DNA from: Paenibacillus sp.
GTDB taxonomy: Bacteria; Bacillota; Bacilli; Paenibacillales; YIM-B00363
Direction of reading: 5' to 3'
Assembly: GCF_035645195.1 (NCBI RefSeq)
Contig: NZ_DASQNA010000022.1
Location: 62,001 to 126,000, forward strand
DNA: 64,000 bases
In this document: positions 16,062 through 30,985 of the stretch, one piece after another
Numbering within the stretch: the stretch's first letter is position 1
Layout: the number at the start of each line of letters is the position of its first letter
Position numbers and translations under genes: made by a program
Notes under the pieces: model-generated
Seen by the model: only the letters and a program-made list of their open reading frames with translations
Told to the model about the DNA's origin: nothing
The model's database searches: none

Positions 16062-16583
16062 TCAAGACGTCGTCGCCCTTCGGGACGTATACTGCTCAAG
16101 ACGCGCCGGGGACGTCTCGAACAGGTCGATGCGTCCGTAACTTTTGTCGTTCGTCTTGACGAGCCGGCAGAACTTTCCGAACAGCCTGCGCAGGTCCGCC
16201 CGGTCGGCCGGCGACCAGAACCGGATCGTCCCCGCCCCCGGCGCCTGTTCGGCAAGGTAAGCGGAGAACGCTTGGAGCAGCCGGAAGAACGCAGCGGAGC
16301 CGCGAACCTCCTCCCGCAAGTACAACGCTTCCGCTTGGCAGACGGCGGCAGGCGTTCCATCCTCTCCGTCAAGGAAGATGAACCCGAGGACGCCTGCCGT
16401 ACGGCCGTCGGCATCGCGAACGAGAAGCGCATCGCCCTGGATGATCGGGTCGCCGATAAAGCTGAACGCCACGCGAAACTCGTAAGGCAGTTTCAATTCG
16501 GCATAGCGTCCCATCAGCAGCAGGAAGTAATCGTCCCACAACGCATCGTCTTCCCCGCACAACATATATGTGAAAGGCGTCAT
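16062..16583 (-). CDS. GNAT-like paralogue overlapping the ABC exporter gene
   Basis: A 173-residue protein. It starts Y-M-L-C-G-E-D-D-A-L-W (compare Y-I-C-E-D-D-A-D-F in the next gene) and has T-A-G-V-L-G-F-I-F-L, A-E-A-L-Y-L-R-E-E-V-R-G-S-A-A-F-F-R-L-L and I-R-F-W-S-P-A-D-R-A-D-L-R-R-L-F-G-K-F, matching the order of its neighbour. Its start overlaps the stop of the ABC exporter by 4 bases (ATGA), so the two are translationally coupled. Together the three genes form an operon read leftward. A role in modifying an exported or signalling molecule is inference. Confidence 0.65.
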   Translation of the reverse strand: MTPFTYMLCGEDDALWDDYFLLLMGRYAELKLPYEFRVAFSFIGDPIIQGDALLVRDADGRTAGVLGFIFLDGEDGTPAAVCQAEALYLREEVRGSAAFFRLLQAFSAYLAEQAPGAGTIRFWSPADRADLRRLFGKFCRLVKTNDKSYGRIDLFETSPARLEQYTSRRATTS

Positions 16584-18724
16584 TTCATTCGCTCCTCCAG
16601 CGTTCGTTCCAACACGCCGCGAATGGACGGGTATGCGGCGGTCAGTTCCAACAGCTGATCCCGGCGCAGGGACAGCAGGACGGTCGGACCGATCGCGACG
16701 ATGTCGGCCGTGCGCGGGATATCCTTCAGCAGGGCGATTTCGCCGAAATAATCCCCGTCCTCCAGCACGGCCACGCGCACTCCGGCCTTCTCCACGGCGA
16801 CGCGGCCCCGCACGATGATGTAAAACTTATCGCCGGCATCGTTCTCCCGGACCACCCGGTGCCCGTCATCGTATGTCTCCGTAATGAACAAGCCGGACAT
16901 CGATTCCAATTGCTCCGCCGGAATGCCTCGGAAGAACGGCAGCTTCGACAGCCTTTCGCCCTCGACTTTGGCCAGGAAGCCGTCGGCGGACAAGACGAAC
17001 CCGTGCTGCTTCTCCCACATATCGGCGTACAGCCCGCCGCGCGCCAGCAGCTCGTCGTGGGTGCCGCTCTCCGCGACGCGGCCGTTCCGGAAGACGACGA
17101 TAACGTCGGCGTTCCTTACCGAAGCGAGACGGTGCGTGACCGTCACGATCGTCCGTTCCCCTCGGAGGCGCCAGATCAGCTCGTTGATGTCGGCTTCCGT
17201 CGCCGGGTCGAGCGCGGAAGTAATTTCGTCGAGGACAAGCAGCTGCGGATCGCCGATCAGAGCGCGGGCGATCGCGAGCCGCTGCCGCTGGCCGCCGGAG
17301 AAGCGGCCGCCGAAATCTTTTACCATCGTTTCGTACTGGTCGGGCATTCGCTCGATCAGCTCGCGGATGCGGGCGGCTTCGGCCGCGGCGCGGACCTCCT
17401 CAAGGGTGACGCCGGGACGCGATAGGCTGATATTTTCGAAAATCGTGTCGTTGAATAAGAACGAATCCTGGAAGACGACGCCGGTGTGCCGCCGGTAATC
17501 GGCTTCGCTCAGCTCCCGCAGGTCGACGCCGTCCGCCTCGATCGCCCCTTGTTTCGGGTCGTAGAACCGCAGCAGCAGCTGCAGCGCCGTGCTCTTCCCG
17601 GAGCCGCTCTGCCCGACGAACGCCGTCATGCCGCCGGCCGGAATCGCGAGCGATACGCCGTCGAGCGCGAGCGAACTCTCGTCGTAGCCGAAGGAGACAT
17701 CTCGGAAGCGGACCTCGTTGCGAACGCCCGCGAAGGGCTTCGGCCGGCTCGGCAGCGCCAGAGGGGAGCGGTGCCGCAGTACCTCGTCGATGCGCCGAAA
17801 GCTGACGCCGGCTTCGATCAGGCTCGGCACGATCTGCGATAACGACGAGACGGATTGGCCGACGTTCAGGAAGATGGTATAGAAGGCGATGAACGCGCCG
17901 ACCGACAAGTCGTCTTGCAAGATGAAATACCCGCCGAAGCCGATCATGACTGCGTTAAGCGCGAGGAAAGCCGTCAACGGAAGGCGGTCGAGCAGAGCAT
18001 AGACGAACGTGACCCGGATGCCGGCGCTCATCAGGGAGGTTAACCGCTGTTCGACCCTGCCGAGGATATAAGGCGCCGCATGCATGCCTTTCACGACGCG
18101 CCGGCCTTTCAGCACTTCGTCGATCAAGCCGATATAGGCGTCATTCTCGACCCGATAATGCTCCGAGCTCCGCTCGGCTTTGCGCCGGAGCAAATACGGG
18201 CTTGCGAACAGCAGGACCGACCCCGCCGCCATGACGATCGTCAGCTTCCATTCTAATTGCAGCAGCAAGCTCAACCCGATCAGAAGGGAGAGCGTTTCTC
18301 GGAACGAGCGCGGAAGAATGCCCGAGATGGTCCGGTCGACGGCCGCAATGTCCGAAGTCAGCCGGTTCATCAGCGACCCTTGGTCGAACCGATGGTAGAA
18401 CTCTTCCGATTGCGCCGCCACGTGGCGGAATATGTTCTCGCGCAAGTCGTAAACGGCCCGCTCGTTCGCCTTGGCCAACAGGCGATCGCTGAGAAGGCCC
18501 GCGCCGAGGTAGACGATTCCGCCGACGACGAGCAGCGCTAAAACCAGCGAAAACAGGCTGACGTCCTTAGCCGGGAACGCGCCGTCGATCAGGAACTGGA
18601 AGCTAAGAGGGGAGGCGGCAATGTATGCGGTCTCGACGATAATGCAAGCCGCAACCAGCAGCAGCGAGATCCAGTACGGACGGCAGAGCCGAAGCGCAAA
18701 GCGCAGCACGAACAAAAGGTTCAC
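16580..18724 (-). CDS. ABC exporter (fused membrane/ATPase) with C-terminal cyclic-nucleotide-binding domain
   Basis: A 714-residue half-size exporter. Residues 1-310 hold six membrane spans, then the ATPase with Walker A G-Q-S-G-S-G-K-S-T, signature F-S-G-G-Q-R-Q-R-L and Walker B L-L-V-L-D-E. The last 150 residues form a cyclic-nucleotide-binding fold (L-S-K-L-P-F-F-R-G-I, then the phosphate-binding cassette Y-F-G-E-I-A-L-L-K-D-I-P-R-T-A with its glutamate and arginine). ABC exporters of MsbA/LmrA type normally end after the ATPase, so the extra domain is unusual and suggests allosteric control by a cyclic nucleotide or similar ligand. Two GNAT-like genes follow in an overlapping operon. Substrate unknown. 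Confidence 0.88.
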   Translation of the reverse strand: MNLLFVLRFALRLCRPYWISLLLVAACIIVETAYIAASPLSFQFLIDGAFPAKDVSLFSLVLALLVVGGIVYLGAGLLSDRLLAKANERAVYDLRENIFRHVAAQSEEFYHRFDQGSLMNRLTSDIAAVDRTISGILPRSFRETLSLLIGLSLLLQLEWKLTIVMAAGSVLLFASPYLLRRKAERSSEHYRVENDAYIGLIDEVLKGRRVVKGMHAAPYILGRVEQRLTSLMSAGIRVTFVYALLDRLPLTAFLALNAVMIGFGGYFILQDDLSVGAFIAFYTIFLNVGQSVSSLSQIVPSLIEAGVSFRRIDEVLRHRSPLALPSRPKPFAGVRNEVRFRDVSFGYDESSLALDGVSLAIPAGGMTAFVGQSGSGKSTALQLLLRFYDPKQGAIEADGVDLRELSEADYRRHTGVVFQDSFLFNDTIFENISLSRPGVTLEEVRAAAEAARIRELIERMPDQYETMVKDFGGRFSGGQRQRLAIARALIGDPQLLVLDEITSALDPATEADINELIWRLRGERTIVTVTHRLASVRNADVIVVFRNGRVAESGTHDELLARGGLYADMWEKQHGFVLSADGFLAKVEGERLSKLPFFRGIPAEQLESMSGLFITETYDDGHRVVRENDAGDKFYIIVRGRVAVEKAGVRVAVLEDGDYFGEIALLKDIPRTADIVAIGPTVLLSLRRDQLLELTAAYPSIRGVLERTLEERMK

Positions 18725-18986: not shown

Positions 18987-19016
18987 TAGACAGACTGCGA
19001 ATGCGCTCATTATAAT
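18987..19016 (+). promoter_or_regulatory. Sigma-A-like promoter for the small ORF and dynamin operon
   Basis: TAGACA (18987-18992) and TATAAT (19011-19016) are separated by 18 bases. Transcription would begin near 19024 and run into the 58-residue ORF; no terminator is seen between that ORF and the first dynamin gene. Confidence 0.65.
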
Positions 19017-19069: not shown

Positions 19070-19246
19070 ATGGAATCGAAACAAAAAATCCCGAACTATA
19101 CGCCGTCCACGACAACGGTAAGGCCGCATTACGTAAAGCAGCATATTCGCGGCACCAATATTATTGGTCCTTCGTACCGCAACGGCGGGGGACACCCGAA
19201 TATCGACTCGCGTATCGGCTACAAGCGTAAGAACAGCAGAGGCTAG
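19070..19246 (+). CDS. Small basic protein of 58 residues, unknown function
   Basis: An ATG at 19070 preceded by AGGGAGAGGG opens a 58-codon frame ending in TAG at 19246. The product is basic and rich in Asn, Gly, Thr and Tyr: it begins M-E-S-K-Q-K-I-P-N-Y-T-P and includes Q-H-I-R-G-T-N-I-I-G-P-S-Y-R-N-G-G-G and a C-terminal R-I-G-Y-K-R-K-N. No membrane segment or recognised domain is visible. It lies directly downstream of a promoter and 65 bases upstream of the dynamin operon with no terminator between, so it may be its first gene. I do not recognise the family. The good ribosome binding site and sensible composition support it being real. Confidence 0.6.
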   Translation: MESKQKIPNYTPSTTTVRPHYVKQHIRGTNIIGPSYRNGGGHPNIDSRIGYKRKNSRG

Positions 19247-19311
19247 CAGCCGAAAGGGTTTTGAGGGGGTCTGGGTCTATTTCACCATTTCAACGGTCGG
19301 GGGACAGCTGC

Positions 19312-21186
19312 ATGATGAACGGTGAACAACTGACGAAGGAACGCTACGGCTCATTGCGGGAGGAATCGCTGGCCCGCTTTGAACAAATTAGGCAACTGCT
19401 TTGGGAAGAAGGCATGAATACGAACCAGATTCAACGCCTGTCGAATCAGCTGCAAGATAACCGATTCCAAATTATCGTGGTCGGCGAATTTAGCTCAGGG
19501 AAGTCTACCTTTATAAATAGTCTCCTAGGAAGAGCTCTTCTTCCTTCCAAAGTAAAGCCTACAACGGCAACGCTCGGCATCATTCAGGACGGGGCGCCCC
19601 AAGCTACGGCCGTGTACAAAGACGGAACCCGCAAACCGATCCCGCTGGAAGAGATCAAAACGTTCGCCACCGCGCTTGACCGGGCGGGCGCCGAAGAAGC
19701 GCGCAAGATCGAGCATATCGAGATTCAGTACCCCTGCGCCTTCACGAAGGACGGCGTCGTCATCATCGATACGCCTGGCGTCGACGAGTTGGACAAGCAG
19801 CGGGAGGAAGTTACCTACAACCTCATCCCGAAGGTGGACGCGGCGATTTTACTGATGGACGCTAGGCGTCCGTACAAGTACAGCGAGAAAGTGTTTTTGG
19901 AGGACCGTCTGCTGGCCAACCAGATCGGAAAAATTTTCATTGCGCTCAATTTTATCGACTCGATCATCGACGACGGCGAGGATCCCGAGGAAATCGTCGA
20001 TTACACGAGAGAGAAGCTGATCGAGAGCTTGCCCGCGATCGGACGACCGCGCTTGTACGCGCTGTCGGCGAGGGAGGCGCTTTCCGCCAAGGTGAACGGC
20101 GACTCGAATAACGACTATCTGGCCCAATTTCTGTCTTTCGAGGGCGACTTAATGGATTTCCTCGTCAATGAAAAAGGCATTCTCATGATCCGCAATGCCG
20201 TCGTGAAGGCGCTGCTCGAGCTGAAACAGCTGTACGACAATATCGTCGTCAAGCACGCGGGGTTGGATACGCCTCTGCAGCAATTGCTGCAGCAAGAGGC
20301 TGCGTTCGCCGAAAGACTGCGGCAGTTCGAAACGCATCGGCATCAGTTGATCGCCGACGTTCGTTCCGGCTTCCAAAGTCTGCCGAGCCTGTACGAAGCG
20401 GACATCCGTCAGGCGACGGCGATGGCCGTGAACGATATCGAGCGCATCGACCACAACAGATACAAATCCGGGCAATTCAAGGAAGAAGTCGAGGCAATCT
20501 TCCACGAAGCGCTACGCAAGCAGCTTGAACGCGCCGTGCTGCCGCGCATTTCCGAGCAGCTCAGGGACATGATGGAGCAGGCGCAAACGAGATCCGAACG
20601 GTTAATGGAGGAGTTGGAGCGGTTTCGGTACGATCAGCTCTCCATCGATGCGCTGGATTCAACGCGGTTGTACGATCTGAACGGCGTGTTCGAACGAGAC
20701 GCCTCCGTTGGGGGCAAGCAGCTGCTGATGGGCATCGGAGCATGGTTCGGCGTCCCGTTCCTCGTCAGTCTGTTCGCTACGGGAGGACTGGCTCTCATTC
20801 CGTGGGCGATCGGCATGGCTGCATCCATTTTCGGCATTGTCGTATGGGGCGATCGTCAAGAGAAAAAAGCGATCGTGCAGAAGTTGCGTCAAATGGAGCC
20901 TGAGATCGCATTTAAAATTAAACAGTCGATCTCGGAGAAGATGGAGGACGCCTGCGAACAATTCGTCGCGGCCTTAAGCGGTCAAATGAATGCCCGGATC
21001 GAAAATATGCAAGCCGCGCAAAAGGAAACAATCGAGAATAAGAGGAAATTGGCCGGCGAAATCGACGCGAAGAAAGCTTATTACGAGGAGCGGCTGCGTC
21101 AGTCGGGCGCGGTGTCGTCGAAGCTTCAAGCAGTGCTGAAGGAGCTCGGCCGCCGAGGGGTCGCAGCGGACTATGCCGTCACTTGA
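19312..21186 (+). CDS. Dynamin-family GTPase with membrane hairpin (first of pair)
   Basis: A 624-residue bacterial dynamin-like protein. The P-loop G-E-F-S-S-G-K-S-T is at about residues 57-65, switch I threonines follow in K-P-T-T-A-T-L, and the G3 motif D-T-P-G-V at about 151. The G4 position reads L-N-F-I-D, with the usual lysine replaced. A helical stalk follows, then a hydrophobic double span (about 472-515: I-G-A-W-F-G-V-P-F-L-V-S-L-F, W-A-I-G-M-A-A-S-I-F-G-I-V-V-W) and a charged coiled-coil tail. Bacterial dynamins bend or tether membranes, and Bacillus DynA protects membranes under stress. Start at 19312 (or 19315) follows GGTCGGGGG. It overlaps the next gene by 14 bases. Confidence 0.85.
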   Translation: MMNGEQLTKERYGSLREESLARFEQIRQLLWEEGMNTNQIQRLSNQLQDNRFQIIVVGEFSSGKSTFINSLLGRALLPSKVKPTTATLGIIQDGAPQATAVYKDGTRKPIPLEEIKTFATALDRAGAEEARKIEHIEIQYPCAFTKDGVVIIDTPGVDELDKQREEVTYNLIPKVDAAILLMDARRPYKYSEKVFLEDRLLANQIGKIFIALNFIDSIIDDGEDPEEIVDYTREKLIESLPAIGRPRLYALSAREALSAKVNGDSNNDYLAQFLSFEGDLMDFLVNEKGILMIRNAVVKALLELKQLYDNIVVKHAGLDTPLQQLLQQEAAFAERLRQFETHRHQLIADVRSGFQSLPSLYEADIRQATAMAVNDIERIDHNRYKSGQFKEEVEAIFHEALRKQLERAVLPRISEQLRDMMEQAQTRSERLMEELERFRYDQLSIDALDSTRLYDLNGVFERDASVGGKQLLMGIGAWFGVPFLVSLFATGGLALIPWAIGMAASIFGIVVWGDRQEKKAIVQKLRQMEPEIAFKIKQSISEKMEDACEQFVAALSGQMNARIENMQAAQKETIENKRKLAGEIDAKKAYYEERLRQSGAVSSKLQAVLKELGRRGVAADYAVT

Positions 21187-24163
21187 CTTACAGATACGGC
21201 TATATCGCGCGATGAAGGCATCGGAGGGGGCGGCTGCGCGTTCCGTTCGGGCCGAGGGGACGGACGCGACGCGGGAAGCAGCCCTGCTGGCCGGGCGTTT
21301 CTCGATGTGGCTCGCGGTGCGGCGGAACGTGCCGCCCCCGTCCGAACCCTCCGAGATGCTGGCTTGGCTTCGCTCGGAGCTAGCCGTTCTGGAGACGGAA
21401 TGGAAGGCGGAGTCGGGGCGGTCGTACGATTCGGAGAAATTAAACCGGTTGAACGGCATCCAACATTCCCTTGCCGAGCTGCACTATGCCGTGGGGGAAA
21501 CCTGTTGGGCGGCGGACGAACGCGAGCAGGCGATGAAAGAGTGGACGGGCTTGCCGAAGGCATTCCACCCATGGACGTATTTGTACCGGAGCCGACAGTC
21601 GGAAGCGGCCGGCGAGACGGCGGCGGCAATCGTCTATGCCAAGGCGATGACGTGTTCGCCCGGCACGTTGCTATATTTGGAGAAGCACTGGCGCTTGTAC
21701 CGGCTTTATGCGGCCTTGGGCGAAGCGGCCTCGGCGGAGTCCCATCTCCGCGACGTGCTGCGTTCGGAGCCCGATTACGAGGATGCTGCGGAAGAGGCGT
21801 ATCGGTTTTGGACGGCGGGCGGGAATTTCGTGATTGCATTCGAGCATTGTACGGAGCAGTATGTACGCGCGCCCGGCGACATTTGGGCGGACCGAGCGAT
21901 TAGACTTCTGACGGAGGTTGGCGAAATCGCGTCGTTCGCGCCGTGCCGCACGCTGTTGGAGGCATTATTCCGCGATGGCCGCCTAGAGCGATGGTCGCAA
22001 GCTGCGAACACGGCGTACGACGCCGTACCGTACGAAGCTCTCGATGAACTTGCCGCATATGTTAAAGCAACGCTGCTGCCGACGGTACGTCAGTCCGCCA
22101 TCGTCCCGCGTCTTGCGGACGCTGTGGAGCTGCTTGCCGAGTTGAGCGGGTTGTTCGACGGGGACGGCGAGCTGCGCGAGCGTCATTCGGCCGACATTGC
22201 TTGGATTATGATGGTATACGGTCTTTTGCTGCGACGGCGCGCTGCGGCGTTCGAAGGGGGCGTCCGGCTTCAGGTCGCGCTCGAGAAGGGCGATCCCGGC
22301 GACGCTAGGCGCGCCTTGTTGGACCAAACGCTGCTCCGCGTCGGCGTCCCGTCGGAGGAGGACCCCGTCGCCGCGGATTTTCCTTGGCTGCACGAGGTTG
22401 AGAAGTTGGCTGAAGCCATCGAAGATTGCGGAGGGAACGGGGAGCCGTTCAGGCGGCTGGTTCGATGGGAGCGGGATCCGAATTATCGAATCATGCTGAT
22501 CGGCACGTTTAACAACGGGAAGTCCAGCTTGATCAATGCCCTAGTTGGCGGGAAAGTGCTGAAAACGAAGTCGCTCCCCACTACGTCGATGCTCGTGTTT
22601 CTCTCCGCCGGCGAGCAGGAAGCCGCCGAGTTGTTCCGCCCGGACGCCGGGGAAACGCAGAAAGTGCCGTGGGAACGGGTGGCCGAGCTGACTGCGTTCA
22701 ACGCCGAGCGCAATCCTGGAGAGGATTGGCTGGCTCGGCTTCGGTTGCCGAACGCATGGCTGGCCGATAACCGGCTTGCTCTGATCGACACGCCCGGTTT
22801 TTTAGATTTTAGCAATCAAGCCAAACTCGTGAACGAACATGCGGAAGCGGCCGACCGCATCGTCATGGTCATCGATGCGACCAAACCGCTGACCGGATCG
22901 GAATCGGACATCCTCAGAGGCTTGCTGGCGTTGCCGGATATGGAACCGGATCGATTCGCGTTCGTGCTCAATAAAAGCGACATGCTGGATCCGGAGGAAC
23001 TGGATGACATCGTCGCGCATGTGCGGGGCGGTTTGTCCGAATTGCTAGGGAGCGAGCCTCCGCTGTTCGTGTTCAACAGCAGGGATCCGTCGATGGCGGA
23101 ACGACTTCGGCGCGACTTCGCCGGACTAATCCCGCCGCGCCCGTACGCGGTTCGGTTCGAGCGATTCGCAAGCCGGTTCGCGGAGGCGATGGCGGAGGAG
23201 GAACGCGCCGCGTCGGAACGGACGTCCGCCATGCGCGGGCAAGCGGAACGGTATCGGGCGCTGACAGAGCGATTAGAGACGCAGCGCGAAGATGTCCGGG
23301 GGGAGCTAACGAAGCTGCAGCGCACGCTCGCTGCCGAGCATGCGGCACTGAAGGGGCGGTTGGAACGGTACGTCCACGAGCAACTCCCCGCCTTGATGGA
23401 GCAGCAGACAGACCGCGTCTACATCGGCTTCGATTATAAAACGCTGCGCGAGCAAGTGGAGCGCAAGCTGCAGGAGATTGTTCGTGCGTGGGCCGAAGAG
23501 CATGTAACGCCGCAGTTGCGGGAGAATGTAGCGGGCTTGATGCAGCGAATCCAGCCTTCATACGAGGCGATGCAGTATTGCGTCGACCGGGCGATGGCGC
23601 GGCGGCTGCTTGCGTTGGGGGAGGAGAGCGAATTCGACGAACGCCGAGCGGTCGTCTCCGAACCGGTTCCTTGGCTCGGCATCGTTCAAGCCGCTTCCGA
23701 GCCGGCGCGGCGCTTCGTCGACAGCCAGACGTATTCGGTCCGGGTGCTCGGTTCCGGAGGCATGTTTGCGGGGTTGTTCCATGGCATCTCTTCCTTCTTC
23801 AACGGAACGAACAAGGTGCTGGAGGATGTGCGATCCGAGTTGAGGCGCGAAATTTCGGATTCCGGGGGGAAAACGGCGGAGCGGCTGCATGCGGCGGCGT
23901 TCTCCTCCTACAGCGGCTTCGCCGATGCGTTGTCCGCTGCCGTGCGGAAGTTGCCGGACGAGGCGGCTCATCTGCTGAAAGGCGATACGAAGCTTGTCGA
24001 GACGCGAGCGGAGGAGTTGTTTCGGTCCGCGGCGGAGCTCGAGCGGGAACGCGAACGCATGGCAGAAGCGTTCGCCGACGCCCGGCATCGAATGAAATTG
24101 TGGACATGCCAAGTCAGCCGAGGAGTGATCATCGAGAATGGACAATTATGCCGAATGGCATGA
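21173..24163 (+). CDS. Large dynamin-like GTPase with TPR-like N-terminal half
   Basis: A 996-residue protein. Residues 1-430 are alpha helical with TPR-like repeats (L-A-E-L-H-Y-A-V-G-E-T-C-W-A-A, A-A-I-V-Y-A-K-A-M, L-Y-R-L-Y-A-A-L-G-E-A-A-S-A-E-S). The GTPase follows with G1 G-T-F-N-N-G-K-S-S (near 443), T-T-S-M in switch I, G3 I-D-T-P-G-F (near 539) and G4 L-N-K-S-D (near 599). The C-terminal 330 residues are long amphipathic helices with a glycine/phenylalanine-rich patch (F-A-G-L-F-H-G-I-S-S-F-F-N-G) that could dip into a membrane. It overlaps the genes on both sides. Paired dynamins, as here, usually form heteromeric assemblies; the TPR half should recruit partners. Confidence 0.82.
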   Translation: MPSLDLQIRLYRAMKASEGAAARSVRAEGTDATREAALLAGRFSMWLAVRRNVPPPSEPSEMLAWLRSELAVLETEWKAESGRSYDSEKLNRLNGIQHSLAELHYAVGETCWAADEREQAMKEWTGLPKAFHPWTYLYRSRQSEAAGETAAAIVYAKAMTCSPGTLLYLEKHWRLYRLYAALGEAASAESHLRDVLRSEPDYEDAAEEAYRFWTAGGNFVIAFEHCTEQYVRAPGDIWADRAIRLLTEVGEIASFAPCRTLLEALFRDGRLERWSQAANTAYDAVPYEALDELAAYVKATLLPTVRQSAIVPRLADAVELLAELSGLFDGDGELRERHSADIAWIMMVYGLLLRRRAAAFEGGVRLQVALEKGDPGDARRALLDQTLLRVGVPSEEDPVAADFPWLHEVEKLAEAIEDCGGNGEPFRRLVRWERDPNYRIMLIGTFNNGKSSLINALVGGKVLKTKSLPTTSMLVFLSAGEQEAAELFRPDAGETQKVPWERVAELTAFNAERNPGEDWLARLRLPNAWLADNRLALIDTPGFLDFSNQAKLVNEHAEAADRIVMVIDATKPLTGSESDILRGLLALPDMEPDRFAFVLNKSDMLDPEELDDIVAHVRGGLSELLGSEPPLFVFNSRDPSMAERLRRDFAGLIPPRPYAVRFERFASRFAEAMAEEERAASERTSAMRGQAERYRALTERLETQREDVRGELTKLQRTLAAEHAALKGRLERYVHEQLPALMEQQTDRVYIGFDYKTLREQVERKLQEIVRAWAEEHVTPQLRENVAGLMQRIQPSYEAMQYCVDRAMARRLLALGEESEFDERRAVVSEPVPWLGIVQAASEPARRFVDSQTYSVRVLGSGGMFAGLFHGISSFFNGTNKVLEDVRSELRREISDSGGKTAERLHAAAFSSYSGFADALSAAVRKLPDEAAHLLKGDTKLVETRAEELFRSAAELERERERMAEAFADARHRMKLWTCQVSRGVIIENGQLCRMA

Positions 24164-25169
24164 GCGGCTGAATGCGTGCGTTCGGGAGCTATACGGAACG
24201 CATGAACAGGCCGAGGCGCCTTTGACGGGATCGGGGGGTGGCGGAGCGCTTCGCGTCTGCGTTGCCGGGGCGCACCCGAAGACCTACGAGGCTTGGGCGG
24301 GAGCGCTCGCGGAAGGGGACAGCGAGGTGCGTTTCGCGCAGCCGGACGCGAGCGGCCGCTACGATCTGGAAGCGGAGGCGCATTTCGTCGTCCAAGTCAT
24401 CCGGGCTACGCAGCCGGTCAGCCGGAGCGACGGCATCGGGTACGATTCGTTGAAGGAATGGGTGCCGAACGAACGCCACCGGTTCGCTGCGGACGAGATG
24501 GACCGGATCGATCCGGAAGAGCAGGCGGAAGTTAGCCGTTATATTGAAGAGAAAATAAACGTCGTAAAGCCGTCCTTGGATCCAGTATATTACATCTCCT
24601 CTAAAACCGGGGAAGGGTTGGAGGCGGTCGCGGAAACCGTTCGCGTTCTGGCAAGCCGGCGGGCGGAAGTTCAGGCCGATACGGAACGCTTCCGCCTCCG
24701 GCGGCGAATTCGACAGCTTCGGCAAGCGCTGCAAGCGGAGATCGATGAGCTGCGGCATGCGGGGCGACACAAGGCCGAACGGAAAGAGCAAGCCCGCTCG
24801 GCGATTCGCCGAGCGCTGCAGGACGCCGAGAAAATCGTCGCGTTCATAGGTGAACAGCAAGGGGATTGGGAGCGGCTTGCCGCAACCGTCCGCGCGGCGG
24901 CGCAAGAGAGATTTCGCCTGGAAGACGGCGAGATGGAGGGCGCGGCGCGCTTGGCCCGTCCGGCGTCCGGCGGCGATTCGCCTGCGGCAAAGCTGCGGAG
25001 CGTCGTCGCCGCATGGGCGGACGCCGCCGTCCGGAGGGAGAGGGCGGCTTTGCGCGAGTACGCAAACCGGGAGAATCGGCCGGAGCGGCTTGCCGCCTTG
25101 GAGGAGCTTCGGCAGGCGATTGACAGCATCGAGAAGGAGGCCGAGGAAGCGCATGCGAAAGGCTCTTGA
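24138..25169 (+). CDS. Degenerate dynamin-type GTPase (pseudo-GTPase)
   Basis: A 343-residue protein with a GTPase-like start but no nucleotide-binding motifs. Where a P-loop should be, it has L-R-V-C-V-A-G-A-H-P-K-T-Y-E-A-W, lacking GKS/T. A later stretch, V-V-Q-V-I-R-A-T-Q-P-V-S-R-S-D then H-R-F-A-A-D-E-M-D-R-I-D-P-E-E, lines up with V-M-V-I-D-A-T-K-P-L-T-G-S-E then D-R-F-A-F-V-L-N-K-S-D-M-L-D-P-E-E of the previous gene, so G4 has decayed. A G5-like I-S-S-K-T-G-E-G-L is kept. The C-terminal half is a charged coiled coil. It overlaps the dynamin gene upstream by 26 bases and the M48-like gene by 17. A structural or regulatory role is inferred. Confidence 0.7.
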   Translation: MDNYAEWHERLNACVRELYGTHEQAEAPLTGSGGGGALRVCVAGAHPKTYEAWAGALAEGDSEVRFAQPDASGRYDLEAEAHFVVQVIRATQPVSRSDGIGYDSLKEWVPNERHRFAADEMDRIDPEEQAEVSRYIEEKINVVKPSLDPVYYISSKTGEGLEAVAETVRVLASRRAEVQADTERFRLRRRIRQLRQALQAEIDELRHAGRHKAERKEQARSAIRRALQDAEKIVAFIGEQQGDWERLAATVRAAAQERFRLEDGEMEGAARLARPASGGDSPAAKLRSVVAAWADAAVRRERAALREYANRENRPERLAALEELRQAIDSIEKEAEEAHAKGS

Positions 25170-26061
25170 GGCCGAATTGAAGGATTGGTTGGAACCCGGG
25201 GAAAGGTTGATAAAGGGCCAATTCCGGCTCCGTCCGGAAACGTACGCTCATTCCGAAGCGAATCGGGCGCTGCAAGAGTATATGGAGCTCGTTCCGCATC
25301 GTCAATCGTTATTAACCTACTACCGACAGATGGAGCAAGGAGCGAATTTTCCGGATCTGCTCGGCAAGACGGCGGAAGCAGGACCAAAGCAGTTCGCTAG
25401 AGTATATCGGATGACGGAACAGCTGTCGCGTCTGCTGGGCGTTCCGACGCCTCGAGTGTTTATTTATGAGGAATTGTATTACCGTTCTCATACCGAAGGC
25501 GTCGACTTCCAATGGATCGAATTGAGCTCGGCGCTCGTCGAAGAGTTTACGAACGACGAATTGGCGTTCATTCTCGGCAGGGAGCTCGGGCATATCCAAG
25601 GGCGCCATTTTGAGTATGACGCGATCTACCAAGCGGCGGTCAAGACGTCCCAGTTCGCGGAGCGAATCCCTTTCGTCAATATTATGAACAAGCTGTATAC
25701 GCTTGATATTTATCAGGAGTATTTAAAGGCCTACGCGAACCGCTGGAAGCGGATCGCCACATACTCCGAGGACGCCTGCGGCCTGCTGTGCTCAGGCTCG
25801 ATAGCGGCGTCGGTAGCGGCGGTGAAAAAGCTGGTGCTGAACAACCCCGCGCTTGTCGACGAAGTGGATTTGACCTCGTTCGTTGCCCAGTCCGACGACA
25901 TCGCGGAGCTCGACACGACGGTAATGAAATACACGAAGTTGGACGAGCCGCTGCCGTATGCGCCGCACAGATTGTTGGAGCTCATTCGTTTCGGAAGCTC
26001 CGCGCGGGCGAAACGCGCGCTCTTCCAAATCCGAATTTCCGAGGAGGAACGGCGGTCATGA
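25153..26061 (+). CDS. M48-like peptidase homologue lacking key zinc ligands
   Basis: A 302-residue protein resembling M48 metallopeptidases: F-I-Y-E-E-L-Y-Y-R-S, I-E-L-S-S-A-L-V-E-E-F-T-N-D-E-L-A-F-I-L-G, then R-E-L-G-H-I-Q-G at residues 143-150. The HExxH motif of M48 is therefore R-E-L-G-H, with the first zinc histidine changed to arginine. The downstream ExxAD-like third-ligand motif reads A-T-Y-S-E-D-A-C-G-L, so the glutamate at the usual place is also missing. It is probably catalytically inactive, or it uses other ligands. ATG 25153 follows GAGAAGGAGG and overlaps the upstream gene by 17 bases. There is no obvious membrane segment. Role in the dynamin operon unknown. Confidence 0.72.
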   Translation: MRKALEAELKDWLEPGERLIKGQFRLRPETYAHSEANRALQEYMELVPHRQSLLTYYRQMEQGANFPDLLGKTAEAGPKQFARVYRMTEQLSRLLGVPTPRVFIYEELYYRSHTEGVDFQWIELSSALVEEFTNDELAFILGRELGHIQGRHFEYDAIYQAAVKTSQFAERIPFVNIMNKLYTLDIYQEYLKAYANRWKRIATYSEDACGLLCSGSIAASVAAVKKLVLNNPALVDEVDLTSFVAQSDDIAELDTTVMKYTKLDEPLPYAPHRLLELIRFGSSARAKRALFQIRISEEERRS

Positions 26062-26507
26062 GCGAATCGTTTTCGGTCAAAAAAATGGTTTCCTTTATGG
26101 CTCCGATTTTGAACAAAGGCGTAGAGGCGGCGACGGAGGTCGGCACACGCGCAGTGGGCGTGCTGGTCGATCATTTCGACGATTATTCCGTCCCGGAGCG
26201 GCCGAGCGTCTATGAAGGGATGCCTCGTAGCCAGGAAGAGTGGACGGAGGCGACCCGCGTCGAGCCGATGCGCGCCGAGCATCATTATCGGCTGGCCAGA
26301 TTGCATCATCGAAACTGCGAGCTGACGTCCGCGAAGCTGGAATACGAGGCCGCCGATTTGCTCCAGCCGTTGACGGGCGAACGCCGGCTTCACTACCTTG
26401 CGCTGTTGGACGCGCTCGGTCTTGCCGGCGAGGCTGAATTGCAAGAAATTGAAAGCATGGAGCTCGACCCGTCCGTGCGCGACTTGTACCCCGAGTATTT
26501 CTTGTAA
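26058..26507 (+). CDS. Small helical (TPR-like) protein ending the dynamin operon
   Basis: A 149-residue protein starting in an ATGA overlap with the M48-like gene and preceded by GAGGAGGAACGG. Residues 1-40 contain an amphipathic stretch (V-S-F-M-A-P-I-L-N-K-G-V-E-A-A). The middle has a TPR-like helix pair (H-H-Y-R-L-A-R-L-H-H-R-N-C-E-L-T-S-A-K-L, A-A-D-L-L-Q-P-L-T-G-E-R-R-L-H-Y-L-A-L-L). No family is recognised. Its placement and overlap argue that it works with the dynamin pair, perhaps as an adaptor. No terminator is evident after it before the next gene. Confidence 0.65.
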   Translation: MSESFSVKKMVSFMAPILNKGVEAATEVGTRAVGVLVDHFDDYSVPERPSVYEGMPRSQEEWTEATRVEPMRAEHHYRLARLHHRNCELTSAKLEYEAADLLQPLTGERRLHYLALLDALGLAGEAELQEIESMELDPSVRDLYPEYFL

Positions 26508-26556: not shown

Positions 26557-26591
26557 CTCTCCTTTCCAGTAAGCTGTGATGGAAAGGAGAG
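26557..26591 (+). promoter_or_regulatory. Hairpin sequestering the Shine-Dalgarno of the next gene
   Basis: A perfect 11-bp inverted repeat (CTCTCCTTTCC at 26557-26567 and GGAAAGGAGAG at 26581-26591) encloses a 13-base loop. The right arm is exactly the ribosome binding site of the membrane protein starting at 26598. When folded, the site is fully paired, which would repress translation until opened. Confidence 0.65.
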
Positions 26592-26597
26592 ATAACG

Positions 26598-27323
26598 ATG
26601 AAAGAAAATGTAGAAATGCGGTGGATGCGCTTTTTGTCCCGGTGGATGTTCGTCATGCCCGTTCCCGTCCTGCTGCTGTTCGTCTCGATCGGCATGCTGC
26701 TGAGCAGAGCCGGCGGCGTTCCCGTCGAGCAGGCGTACATGGTCGCGGCGTCGCAGGAGCCGCTTGGACTGCGGCTGCTCGGCCTTGCGATCACGCTGCT
26801 GTGGGGGACCGTAGCGGTGTTTTTTATCGCCGCGGCGGGGGCGTTCAAGGGGCGGTATCCGATGAGAGGCACGTTCCTCGGCGCGACCGGCCTCGGCTTC
26901 TTGATCCCGATGTCGGCGGGGAACGTGCAGTGGACGGCGGCGATGGACATGGCCCGGCGGTACGGCGCCGCCGCGACGGAGGAGCAGCGGGAGACACTGC
27001 GGCAAATTCAGCTGACCGTCTTCCAAATCGTCGAGTCGCGGATCGACTTTTCCAATCTGCTGTGGGTGCTCGGCATGGCTCTGCTGATTTCCATGGCGCG
27101 GGAGGCGGGGATGATGCCGAAGACGACGGCCGCGCTGTACGCGCTGTCGGCGTTCGTCATGCTCGGCGTATTCGCGTCGCATGTCGTCGGCTATCCGTTC
27201 CCGTTCGTCTTGATTCCGGCGTACTGGGCGGTGACGCTCGGCGCGCATCTGACGTTCGGCGCGGCGCTCGTCCGCGGGCTTCGGACAGGCAAACTTCATG
27301 TCGACGCGACGGCGTCGGCGTAA
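26598..27323 (+). CDS. Polytopic membrane protein, unknown function
   Basis: A 241-residue integral membrane protein with about six hydrophobic segments (near residues 15-35, 55-80, 88-105, 148-167, 172-198 and 201-220) separated by short polar loops; a charged loop with E-E-Q-R-E-T-L-R lies in the middle. No catalytic motif or known family is recognised. It starts at 26598, 8 bases after AGGAG, but that site sits in a perfect hairpin (26557-26591). It lies between the dynamin operon and the type I methyltransferase genes on the same strand, ending at a strong terminator. Confidence 0.7.
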   Translation: MKENVEMRWMRFLSRWMFVMPVPVLLLFVSIGMLLSRAGGVPVEQAYMVAASQEPLGLRLLGLAITLLWGTVAVFFIAAAGAFKGRYPMRGTFLGATGLGFLIPMSAGNVQWTAAMDMARRYGAAATEEQRETLRQIQLTVFQIVESRIDFSNLLWVLGMALLISMAREAGMMPKTTAALYALSAFVMLGVFASHVVGYPFPFVLIPAYWAVTLGAHLTFGAALVRGLRTGKLHVDATASA

Positions 27324-27354: not shown

Positions 27355-27466
27355 CGTTGGTCGAGAGCCCTTAGGGACAAGCCGAAAAAGGTTTTTCCGG
27401 AGCGGCGTTGAATGTATTGAGCATACATAACACGAGCGAGAGGCTTGCGGAAAGTTGGGGGAAGTC

Positions 27467-28936
27467 ATGCTGACGGGAGAAATTCGCAACAAAGTCGACC
27501 GCCTCTGGACGGATCTGTGGGCGGGCGGCATCGCCAACCCGTTGACGGCGATCGAGCAGCTGACGTATTTGATGTTTATCCGATCGCTGGACGAGAAGGA
27601 GCGGGAGGCCGAACGCGCCGAAGCGGCCGGCGGCCGGCCGGAGCCGAGGCGGTTTCCGCCCACGGAGGAAGGCCAGTCCATGCGGTGGAGCCGCTTCAAG
27701 ACGATGGACCCGCAGCGGATGTTCGACATCGTCGGGACGAAGGTGTTCCCGTTCATCAAAACGCTGAACGGAGACAACGCGACGGCGTTCGCCCGGTACA
27801 TGCAGGATGCCGTCTTCTTGATCCCGACCCCGCATGTGCTGCACAAAATCGTCGCCGGCTTGGACGAGCTGTACGAGCATGACGTTCGGGAGCTGGACAT
27901 GCAGGGCGACGTGTACGAGTATATGCTCGGGAAGCTGGCGACGGCCGGGCGGAACGGCCAATTCCGCACGCCGAAGCATATTCGTGATTTGATGGTGCGC
28001 TTGATCGCGCCGACGCCGGGCGAAACCATCTGCGACCCGGCCTGCGGGACGGCGGGCTTCCTCGTTTCCGCGGCCGAATACGTCCGGGCGAACTGCGGGC
28101 CGAGCATGACGGCCGAGCAGCGGGCGCATGCCGCGGGGGAGATGTTCACCGGATTCGACACGGACCGGACGATGCTGCGCCTGTCGGCGATGAACTTGAT
28201 GCTGCACGCGATCACGCGGCCGAACATCGATTACGCGGACAGCGTATCGAAGCGGAACGATCTCTCCGACGCGTTCGATATCGTCCTGGCGAATCCGCCG
28301 TTCACGGGGACGGTCGACGGCGACGCCATCCACGACGCCCTGAAGTCCGTGTGCGACACGAAGAAAACGGAGCTGCTGTTCGTGGCGCTCTCCCTCCGCA
28401 TGCTCCGGAAGGGCGGGCGCTGCGCCTGCATCGTGCCGGAGGGCGTCTTGTTCGGCGCGTCGAAGGCGCACAGAGCGCTCCGGCGGGAGCTCGTCGACAA
28501 CCACCGCCTGCAGGCGGTCATCGCGATGCCGAGCGGCGTGTTCAAGCCGTACGCGGGCGTGAGCACGGCGATTCTGCTGTTTACGAAAACGGGCGAAGGC
28601 GGCACGGACCGCGTTTGGTTTTACGATATGAAATCGGACGGGTACTCGCTGGACGACAAACGGACGCCAATCGACGCCGGCGATCTCCCCGACATCGAAG
28701 CGCGCTTCCGCAAGCTCGAAGCCGAAGCGCTTCGGCGGCGGACGGAGCAAAGCTTCTTCGTCGAGAAGGCCGAGATCGCCGCGAACGATTACGATTTGTC
28801 GATACGGCGGTACAAAGAGGTCGTTCAGGGGAAGGCAGACTTCGAACCGCCCGAGGTCATTCTCGACCGTCTGGAACGCATGAACGCCGACATCGCCGCG
28901 AAGACCGAGAGGCTGAGGGGGCTCCTCCGTGAGTAG
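27467..28936 (+). CDS. hsdM: Type I restriction-modification methyltransferase subunit
   Basis: A 489-residue N6-adenine DNA methylase. It has the N-terminal helical HsdM_N domain (about 1-140, with L-T-Y-L-M-F-I-R-S-L-D) and a catalytic domain containing motif I D-P-A-C-G-T-A-G-F (190-198) for S-adenosyl-methionine, and motif IV N-P-P-F (276-279) for the target adenine. It needs HsdS for sequence recognition; the hsdS start lies inside its last codons. ATG 27467 follows GGGGGAAG; a TTG 12 bases earlier is also in frame. No hsdR is present on either side in this window, so the pair appears to be a methylation-only system or one with a distant R subunit. Confidence 0.93.
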   Translation: MLTGEIRNKVDRLWTDLWAGGIANPLTAIEQLTYLMFIRSLDEKEREAERAEAAGGRPEPRRFPPTEEGQSMRWSRFKTMDPQRMFDIVGTKVFPFIKTLNGDNATAFARYMQDAVFLIPTPHVLHKIVAGLDELYEHDVRELDMQGDVYEYMLGKLATAGRNGQFRTPKHIRDLMVRLIAPTPGETICDPACGTAGFLVSAAEYVRANCGPSMTAEQRAHAAGEMFTGFDTDRTMLRLSAMNLMLHAITRPNIDYADSVSKRNDLSDAFDIVLANPPFTGTVDGDAIHDALKSVCDTKKTELLFVALSLRMLRKGGRCACIVPEGVLFGASKAHRALRRELVDNHRLQAVIAMPSGVFKPYAGVSTAILLFTKTGEGGTDRVWFYDMKSDGYSLDDKRTPIDAGDLPDIEARFRKLEAEALRRRTEQSFFVEKAEIAANDYDLSIRRYKEVVQGKADFEPPEVILDRLERMNADIAAKTERLRGLLRE

Positions 28937-30065
28937 CCGGGTAACGGCGCGTCTCGGCGACGCAGCGATCATCCGAACCGGGAAGCTCGACGCAGGCGCA
29001 AGCTCGGCGGAGGGGCGGTATCCGTTCTTCACCTGCTCGAGGGAAACCTTGAAAATCGATACCTATAGCTACGACTGCGAGTGCGTCCTCGTCGGGGGCA
29101 ACGGGGAGCTGCACGTGAAATATTACGACGGCAAGTTCGATGCCTACCAGCGAACTTACATTATCGAATCGATCGATAAAGAAGTTCTGCACGTGCCTTA
29201 CCTGTACCATTTCTTGAACCATTACGTGGAAGCGCTGCGCAGCCGATCGGTCGGCGGGGTCGTCAAATATATCAAGCTCGGCCATTTGACGGAAGCGGCC
29301 GTTCCGCTGCCGCCGACCGACGAGCAGCGCCGCATCGCAGAGGTTATGCGCGAGGCGGCCGAGCTGGCGGAGCTGCGCCGGCGGCAGCTGAACGAGCTGG
29401 AGCTGCTCGCGCGGTCGGCGTTTCACGACCTGTTCGGCGATCCCGCCGTCAATGAGAAAGGATGGGACGCCGCTCGGTTCGGCGACGTGCTCGCGGCGAA
29501 GGCGCAGAACGGCTTCTTCGCCAAAACCGACGCCTACGCCGAGGACGGCAACGCCGAAATCGTGTGGATCAACGACTTCCTCGACCGCCGCGCCTGCGAA
29601 CTCGGCAAGCTGCGGCGGGTCAAGGCCGATCCCGCGCAAATCGCCAAGTTTCAAGCGGCTTACGGGGATTTGCTGTTCTGCAGGTCGTCGCTCACCGAAG
29701 CCGGCGTCGGGAAATGCGCCTATGTGCCGCGGGACGTGAGGCCGAACACGATGTTCGAATGCCATATCATCCGGACGAGGCTGGACTTGCGCCGAGTGCA
29801 TCCGGTATTTATGCAGGCGCAGACGATGACCGACGGGTTCAGGAGGCAGATAGCGGCGAAGGCGAAACGATCGACGATGACGACGATCGGACAGGACGGC
29901 ATCGTCGGCTGCCGGATCGTCGTCCCGCCGCTCGAGCTGCAGCGCCGGTTCGCGGACATCGCCGCGGACATCGATGCGCAGCGGGAGGCGGTCCGCCAGG
30001 CGCTTGACGCGACGCAGCGGCTGTACGACAGCCTCGCAAACCGGTATTTCGGGCGGGGCGCATAG
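28929..30065 (+). CDS. hsdS: Type I specificity subunit
   Basis: A 378-residue specificity protein beginning with GTG at 28929, overlapping hsdM by 8 bases. It has two target-recognition domains (about 1-115 and 180-320), each followed by a conserved helical spacer: P-L-P-P-T-D-E-Q-R-R-I-A-E-V-M-R-E-A-A-E with L-A-R-S-A-F-H-D-L-F-G-D, and V-P-P-L-E-L-Q-R-R-F-A-D-I-A-A-D-I-D with Y-D-S-L-A-N-R-Y-F-G. The two-repeat architecture gives a bipartite DNA target. Full length, no truncation. With HsdM it would form an M2S methylase. Confidence 0.92.
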   Translation: MSSRVTARLGDAAIIRTGKLDAGASSAEGRYPFFTCSRETLKIDTYSYDCECVLVGGNGELHVKYYDGKFDAYQRTYIIESIDKEVLHVPYLYHFLNHYVEALRSRSVGGVVKYIKLGHLTEAAVPLPPTDEQRRIAEVMREAAELAELRRRQLNELELLARSAFHDLFGDPAVNEKGWDAARFGDVLAAKAQNGFFAKTDAYAEDGNAEIVWINDFLDRRACELGKLRRVKADPAQIAKFQAAYGDLLFCRSSLTEAGVGKCAYVPRDVRPNTMFECHIIRTRLDLRRVHPVFMQAQTMTDGFRRQIAAKAKRSTMTTIGQDGIVGCRIVVPPLELQRRFADIAADIDAQREAVRQALDATQRLYDSLANRYFGRGA

Positions 30066-30912: not shown

Positions 30913-30985
30913 CATTTCAGAGATAAGAATGCACCGCCGTGTCTTATCTCTTATAAAAATCGATGAAAAAAAAGGACGTGGGGAC

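Follow-up and report, generated by a model that had tools for sequence, protein, structure and literature searches.

We analysed a stretch of 64,000 nucleotides from a Paenibacillus sp. (NCBI RefSeq assembly GCF_035645195.1, contig NZ_DASQNA010000022.1, positions 62,001 to 126,000 of the forward strand), referred to as the window, and within it an operon of five genes, A to E, at 19312–26507. The operon encodes two dynamin-like GTPases (A, 624 amino acids (aa), 19312–21186; B, 996 aa, 21173–24163), a protein with a degenerate dynamin-type G domain that has no P-loop (C, 343 aa, 24138–25169), a zinc-less M48-fold protein (D, 302 aa, 25153–26061), and a small protein with a weak tetratricopeptide repeat (TPR)-like stretch (E, 149 aa, 26058–26507). 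All five genes lie on the plus strand in open frames whose starts and stops overlap, and the successive overlaps of 14, 26, 17 and 4 bases reproduce exactly those given in an initial annotation of this DNA. That annotation had also described two dynamin-like GTPases, a GTPase relative with lost nucleotide motifs, an M48-like protein lacking its zinc site and a small protein, and each of these descriptions agrees with what is reported here.

The operon had been described as read from a single promoter region. A promoter-like site is present at 18987–19016 on the plus strand (TAGACA-18-TATAAT, 11 of 12 consensus matches), although four such sites were found in the region against 2.7 expected, the basis being the consensus match only. 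The picture is refined by a previously unlisted open reading frame (ORF) of 58 codons (19070–19246, plus strand), which lies between the promoter-like site and A, and whose ATG is preceded by GGGAGAGGG. Judged by eye, the ribosome binding site (RBS)-like stretch is good before this small gene and weak before A, which has an alternative TTG start at 19261, and purine-rich RBS-like stretches also precede B, C, D and E. The small gene matched no family and was present in only one of 119 genomes, its own. Because its distribution is as narrow as that of the operon, it may be a sixth member. The genome sets of this and the other searches overlap, and the total of 1859 genome searches does not mean 1859 different genomes.

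Both A and B are dynamin-type GTPases. Pfam Dynamin_N matches A at an E-value of 6.2e-31 and B at 1.4e-18 (residues 440–601), and the nucleotide motifs are intact in A (P-loop GEFSSGKS, and DTPG) as well as in B (P-loop GTFNNGKS at residue 444, DTPG and NKSD). The two genes are adjacent, co-oriented and overlapping, with a Dynamin_N domain in each, and they are therefore classed as a tandem pair. A has two strong hydrophobic segments (residues 471–489 and 493–511) that likely form a membrane paddle; the equivalent stretch is weak in B and absent in C and E. B carries about 430 additional residues ahead of its G domain, for which the best matches were two TPR models at an E-value of about 1. 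The first 338 residues of B were unmatched in 392 genomes of the order at E-values up to 1e-8, and among the matches listed from this search all except B itself begin at residue 339 or later. The N-terminal part of B also had no match among plasmids. Solved relatives identified by sequence include BDLP1 and the Cj-DLP1/DLP2 structure (5owv), the latter matching both A and B. A genome-wide scan for A alone, using search patterns that left out the conserved P-loop, gave no relative. The same genome also encodes a DynA-like ORF of 1235 aa on another contig.

We compared the pair with nine loci that contain adjacent dynamin genes, eight from genomes of the order and one from a Lysinibacillus plasmid, while a tenth locus (L073) has one large dynamin only. 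The ORFs of these loci came from a simple caller of our own, so that gene edges are approximate, and phmmer E-values relate to the small ORF set. In all nine tandem loci (the genome loci being L071–L072 and L074–L079), a third, larger dynamin adjoins the pair or sits one small gene away from it. By phmmer, B is closer to the second gene of the pair in all eight genome loci and A is closer to the first gene in six of them. A tree of the G domains is in weak agreement: among its splits that place A and the first genes on one side and B and the second genes on the other, the deepest has support 53/93. We also observed a triple-dynamin operon on the Lysinibacillus capsici plasmid pFN9B (L040:4975–11923); within a few kilobases of it lie an integrase and a gene predicted to encode florfenicol efflux.

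The third gene product, C, had no Pfam match at an E-value of 0.1 and no PDB match at an E-value of 1, and its best NCBIfam match was EngA (0.077). Using hhalign, however, residues 79–156 of C align with the G4–G5 half of the dynamin G domain at a score of 41.3, compared to a maximum of 21.2 for 40 shuffled versions of C; the dynamin profile used had 33 rows, A and B among them. The first half of the G domain, including the P-loop, is unrecognisable, and the G-domain part is followed by a probably helical region. For E, the best indication of its fold is a match to TPR_16 at an E-value of 0.022, which falls below the cut-off. At an E-value of 0.1, none of A to E matched PF00004, the AAA family.

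D is an M48-fold protein by its match to Peptidase_M48 (PF01435; 34.7 bits against a cut-off of 20.3). It has RELGH at the HExxH position and a Thr in place of the downstream Glu zinc ligand, and so is not classed as an active peptidase. A search of 398 genomes of the phylum with D alone as query gave matches in 36. Eleven D-matching stretches were examined, ten from this search and one from another, and only G705 lacked HExxH without a visible cause, the M48 frame of L067 being broken by a stop. A two-row alignment searched against GTDB contigs then gave two relatives, in Schwartzia succinivorans and in Firmicutes UBA5486, and a three-row profile searched against 200 genomes of the class of G705 gave five matches, including the new members G961 and G831 as well as one intact M48 protein and one HtpX-like protein.

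In a tree of 21 rows, D and four of these proteins form one clade (support 99/99, and 100/99 in a repeat). The HExxH motif is missing in all five members of the clade and present in all 16 remaining rows. The first His has become Arg in four of the five, and the downstream Glu is lost in D, L060 and L080 and kept in L087 and L088. As the Glu is lost in three members and kept in two, the zinc site of the clade seems to have eroded stepwise. Residues invariant across the clade include D68, G71, K72, E106, W198, R200, P268 and R273 in the numbering of D. The clade was found in only one of 296 genomes of the order, that of the operon itself, which argues against a link between M48 proteins and dynamins as a general rule; the other 24 matches to D in the order cover the HtpX-like core only.

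M48 genes with an intact zinc site do adjoin dynamin genes elsewhere. Using the M48 protein of locus L068 as query, 11 of 299 genomes gave a match (E-values up to 1e-15), and in three of these (G654, G492 and G444) a dynamin gene lies directly downstream of the intact M48 gene. The three genomes belong to families f38, f37 and f24, in three Bacillota classes with non-overlapping class lists. The first dynamin beside the protease is A-like in each row, and a second dynamin gene is also present in G492 and in G444, whose first is broken; the contig of G654 ends within its first. The three M48 proteins keep HExxH and have a zinc-ribbon-like tail, and just upstream of each M48 gene is the end of a zinc-ribbon-like protein, which in L068 and L115 also has hydrophobic segments. 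The zinc-ribbon labels are based on sub-threshold Pfam matches and on paired Cys residues judged by eye. These rows of zinc-ribbon-like protein, intact M48 and dynamin genes lie at L068:8130–10131, L114:1–3387 and L115:7694–13825, in fragmented assemblies; L068 and L114 each stop partway through a dynamin gene, and in L115 there are runs of N and the first dynamin is disrupted. For the remaining eight genomes, no dynamin was found in the stretch examined, two of the contigs being short. Assuming about 2000 genes and up to six dynamin genes per genome, or about 0.003 per next gene, we estimate the chance that three of eleven M48 genes would have a dynamin as the next gene at a few in a million. 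A further, more distant M48 match was found in the class of G492 (G976, 8.8e-21).

The three dynamin-linked proteases form one clade, supported at 100/100 in both trees and distinct from the D clade. Because of this separation, the link between M48 proteins and dynamins would either have arisen repeatedly or be old and mostly lost. A particular closeness of A to the dynamins linked to M48 genes was considered and found unsupported, as the L068 dynamin groups with six first-of-pair rows and A falls outside them. Co-occurrence of all five gene families, which the initial annotation had proposed to check, is not supported in the genomes searched; what recurs is the adjacency of M48 and dynamin genes. 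Its suggestion that the set is undescribed stands for the literature we searched, open-licence PubMed Central, with subscription papers and preprints outside this scope. Among the matches listed, there was no description of the set, no report of M48 genes with bacterial dynamins, and no mention of the zinc-less M48 clade and its AAA+ or dynamin partners. In the excerpts of one bacterial paper (PMC10295235), dynamin, M48 and operon are named in unrelated places.

Five other genomes of the genus, one of which is 81% complete, lack D and full-length B. The guanine-plus-cytosine (GC) content at third codon positions is 0.68–0.73 in the five operon genes, while among 13 hand-chosen reference ORFs of the window 12 are at 0.78–0.89 and one is at 0.69. 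The lower third-position GC and the absence from the five genomes of the same genus suggest that the operon was acquired horizontally. Searches of plasmids with A, B, C, D and the N-terminal part of B yielded, where anything matched at all, dynamins or M48 proteins of a generic kind. Dynamin genes were absent from the stretches examined around plasmid M48 genes of Thermus, Bernardetia, Rhodococcus and Tsukamurella; a Nonomuraea stretch is unannotated, and its M48 gene was not recovered by the gene caller.

From these comparisons, we propose that the operon may encode a heterotypic tandem-dynamin complex at the cytoplasmic face of the membrane, regulated by two enzymatically dead subunits and protective of the membrane, a reading in which our confidence is about even. 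On the model of the Campylobacter DLP1/DLP2 tetramer, A would insert into the membrane and B would bridge A subunits. C, in which the nucleotide loop is absent, would cap the dynamin assembly or tune and bias it, and D would dock on a dynamin or on a damaged membrane protein without cleaving it. E and the N-terminal extension of B would provide a scaffold. Through such a complex, damaged membrane could be tethered and sealed, giving tolerance of pore-forming agents or a delay in phage lysis. Membrane surveillance or repair is a reasonable inference by analogy with known tandem dynamins, and a role in phage defence is possible.

Several observations weigh against such a complex. Only a single genome is known to carry all five genes together, and the operon is without the third large dynamin that all nine ordinary tandem loci carry, although C may stand in for it. 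In two of the eight genome loci (L077 and L078) A fits the second gene better than the first, and in the G-domain tree B sits on a long branch. No match to D was found in the eight ordinary tandem-dynamin loci compared, and within the stretches examined the other four members of the D clade are accompanied by AAA+ or weakly TPR-like genes instead of dynamins. In addition, the AlphaFold models of C (made from a single sequence) and D (from three sequences) were unusable, with predicted local distance difference test (pLDDT) values of 41.7 and 42.7, respectively.

Known systems resemble the operon in part. Like Cj-DLP1/Cj-DLP2 of Campylobacter jejuni, A and B are encoded as a pair, and both match that structure by sequence. 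According to excerpts of PMC6104087, the Campylobacter proteins form a 2:2 tetramer in which DLP1 binds lipid and DLP2 is an adaptor, and they tether liposomes. B differs in having its 430-residue N-terminal extension, and the terms M48 and peptidase are absent from the main text of that paper, with no pseudo-GTPase subunit described in the excerpts. LeoABC of enterotoxigenic Escherichia coli is likewise an operon with several dynamin pieces, to which there is distant similarity in PADLOC and NCBIfam. In the excerpted text of PMC4159319, LeoB and LeoC constitute one split dynamin and no M48 protein is described; here, A and B are whole, each a single chain in which several hundred residues come after the G domain, and the third dynamin, C, is degenerate. 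Bacillus DynA is a double dynamin that protects membranes and delays phage lysis (PMC8844932), and its two units are fused in one chain. A and B, by contrast, are separate genes, in a genome that has its own DynA-like gene besides. The rows in G654, G492 and G444 share with the operon an M48-fold gene beside dynamins, but in them the M48 protein is intact, comes first and belongs to another clade, and no gene was matched to C or E in these incomplete stretches.

The neighbours of the other zinc-less M48 genes point to an alternative, in which D and E derive from a client-handling M48/TPR-like module for membrane protein quality control, with dynamins replacing an AAA+ ATPase as the motor. We regard this as unlikely. 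M48 proteins such as HtpX have a role in membrane protein quality control, and a weakly TPR-like gene of one family adjoins the M48 gene or sits one small gene from it in all four other D-clade loci. In two of the four, Schwartzia and UBA5486, an AAA+ ATPase is in the same gene row, so that the nucleotide-driven partner of the same clade is an AAA+ ATPase there and a dynamin pair here. These two rows (L060:7623–12593 in Schwartzia succinivorans and L080:1789–5432 in Firmicutes UBA5486) combine the AAA+ ATPase and the zinc-less M48 protein with a weakly TPR-like protein and with small proteins whose N-termini are hydrophobic, and the Schwartzia row closes with an ankyrin protein; we found no description of such a row in the open-licence literature. 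The TPR-like family itself is loosely defined, with a sub-threshold TPR match in the L060 member and none in that of L080, these two being the members scanned, and the others are linked to them by phmmer within a small ORF set. E shows no detectable kinship with this family (hhalign probability 0.1%). When E, C, the N-terminal part of B and the 58-codon gene were compared with the small and TPR-like proteins of the D-clade loci, no convincing similarity was found: four of 52 comparisons exceeded a z-score of 2.5, one for E and three for C, and each was equalled by two or three of 200 shuffles. Also counting against this alternative, dynamins are to our knowledge not known as unfoldases.

The surroundings of the operon bear on a second alternative, that of a dedicated anti-phage system whose effector is the dynamin pair, with C, D and E as its sensors of infection and the type I modification genes perhaps taking part. 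The initial annotation had placed the operon beside type I methylase genes and raised the possibility of a defence island. HsdM (27455–28936) and HsdS (28929–30065) are indeed present and begin about 950 bases past the operon, but one ORF of 241 codons intervenes, and no HsdR was found before a transport gene at 30929, the rest of the genome not having been searched for HsdR. As an observation of its own, HsdM–HsdS (27455–30065) may represent an orphan pair for type I modification. An ATP-binding cassette (ABC) exporter that carries a cyclic-nucleotide-binding domain at its C-terminus (16580–18724) lies upstream and is divergent from the operon. Its PADLOC matches, to mad3 at 2.1e-31 and to cyclic-nucleotide effector models at 3.9e-13 at best, are read as likely stemming from shared ABC and cyclic-nucleotide domains. 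Among ten neighbour proteins scanned with PADLOC, HsdM and HsdS were the only clear defence genes, and the exporter was the sole further protein to give a match. A matched LeoA at 5.7e-17 and LeoBC at 6.5e-15, and B matched them at 3.5e-19 and 3.8e-6, respectively, with no curated cut-offs shown for these models. As the similarity to LeoA/LeoBC is distant and the HsdM–HsdS pair has no HsdR nearby, we rejected the label of defence island for these surroundings.

A perfect 12-base inverted repeat was read from the sequence in the gap between E and the next gene (26557–26591, arms 26557–26568 and 26580–26591, no strand assigned). It takes in the presumed RBS of the gene at 26598 and could serve in translational control or as a terminator.

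A dedicated anti-phage system is in our judgement unlikely. The narrow distribution of the operon, the signs of its acquisition, the nearby HsdM and HsdS, the LeoA/LeoBC matches and the delay of lysis by DynA (as given in the excerpts of PMC8844932) speak for it. Against it stand the scarcity of clear defence genes among the neighbours, the lack of a nearby HsdR and the additional ORF, and the results of viral searches. Three alignments used as queries against viral contigs retrieved no relative of the set, and the sole phage record matched by B was covered at 24%. PHROGs gave weak matches only, the best being B to an elongation factor (2.4e-4); D matched a virion protein at 0.003.

A wider version of the tandem-dynamin proposal, in which M48-fold proteins would be dedicated regulators of tandem dynamins, seems quite improbable to us. 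In three Bacillota classes, intact M48 proteins encoded just upstream would cleave or clear dynamins upon membrane stress, and in the window the separate, zinc-less lineage of D would control them through docking alone, alongside a dead dynamin-like subunit. In mitochondria the M48 protease OMA1 controls the dynamin-family protein OPA1 (excerpts of PMC8027119), and an intact M48 protein cleaving dynamins would be a bacterial counterpart; however, OMA1–OPA1 is eukaryotic, faces the intermembrane space and is proteolytically active, and the likeness is an analogy in logic only.

Finally, a decaying or chance assembly, in which eroding genes have joined an ordinary tandem dynamin pair, would account for the loss of catalytic motifs in C and D and for the single occurrence of the full set, but is very unlikely given that every frame is open with overlapping starts and stops, that HExxH is lost clade-wide while D68, G71, K72, W198, R200, P268 and R273 stay invariant, and that the linkage of M48 and dynamin genes is recurrent.

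The recurrent gene link of M48-fold proteins, whether intact or dead, to dynamins provides concrete candidate regulators of bacterial dynamins. If the intact proteases act on dynamins, this would be a bacterial parallel to the protease–dynamin logic of mitochondria, and if the dead M48 proteins function too, they would show cleanly how a pseudoenzyme can take the place of proteolysis.

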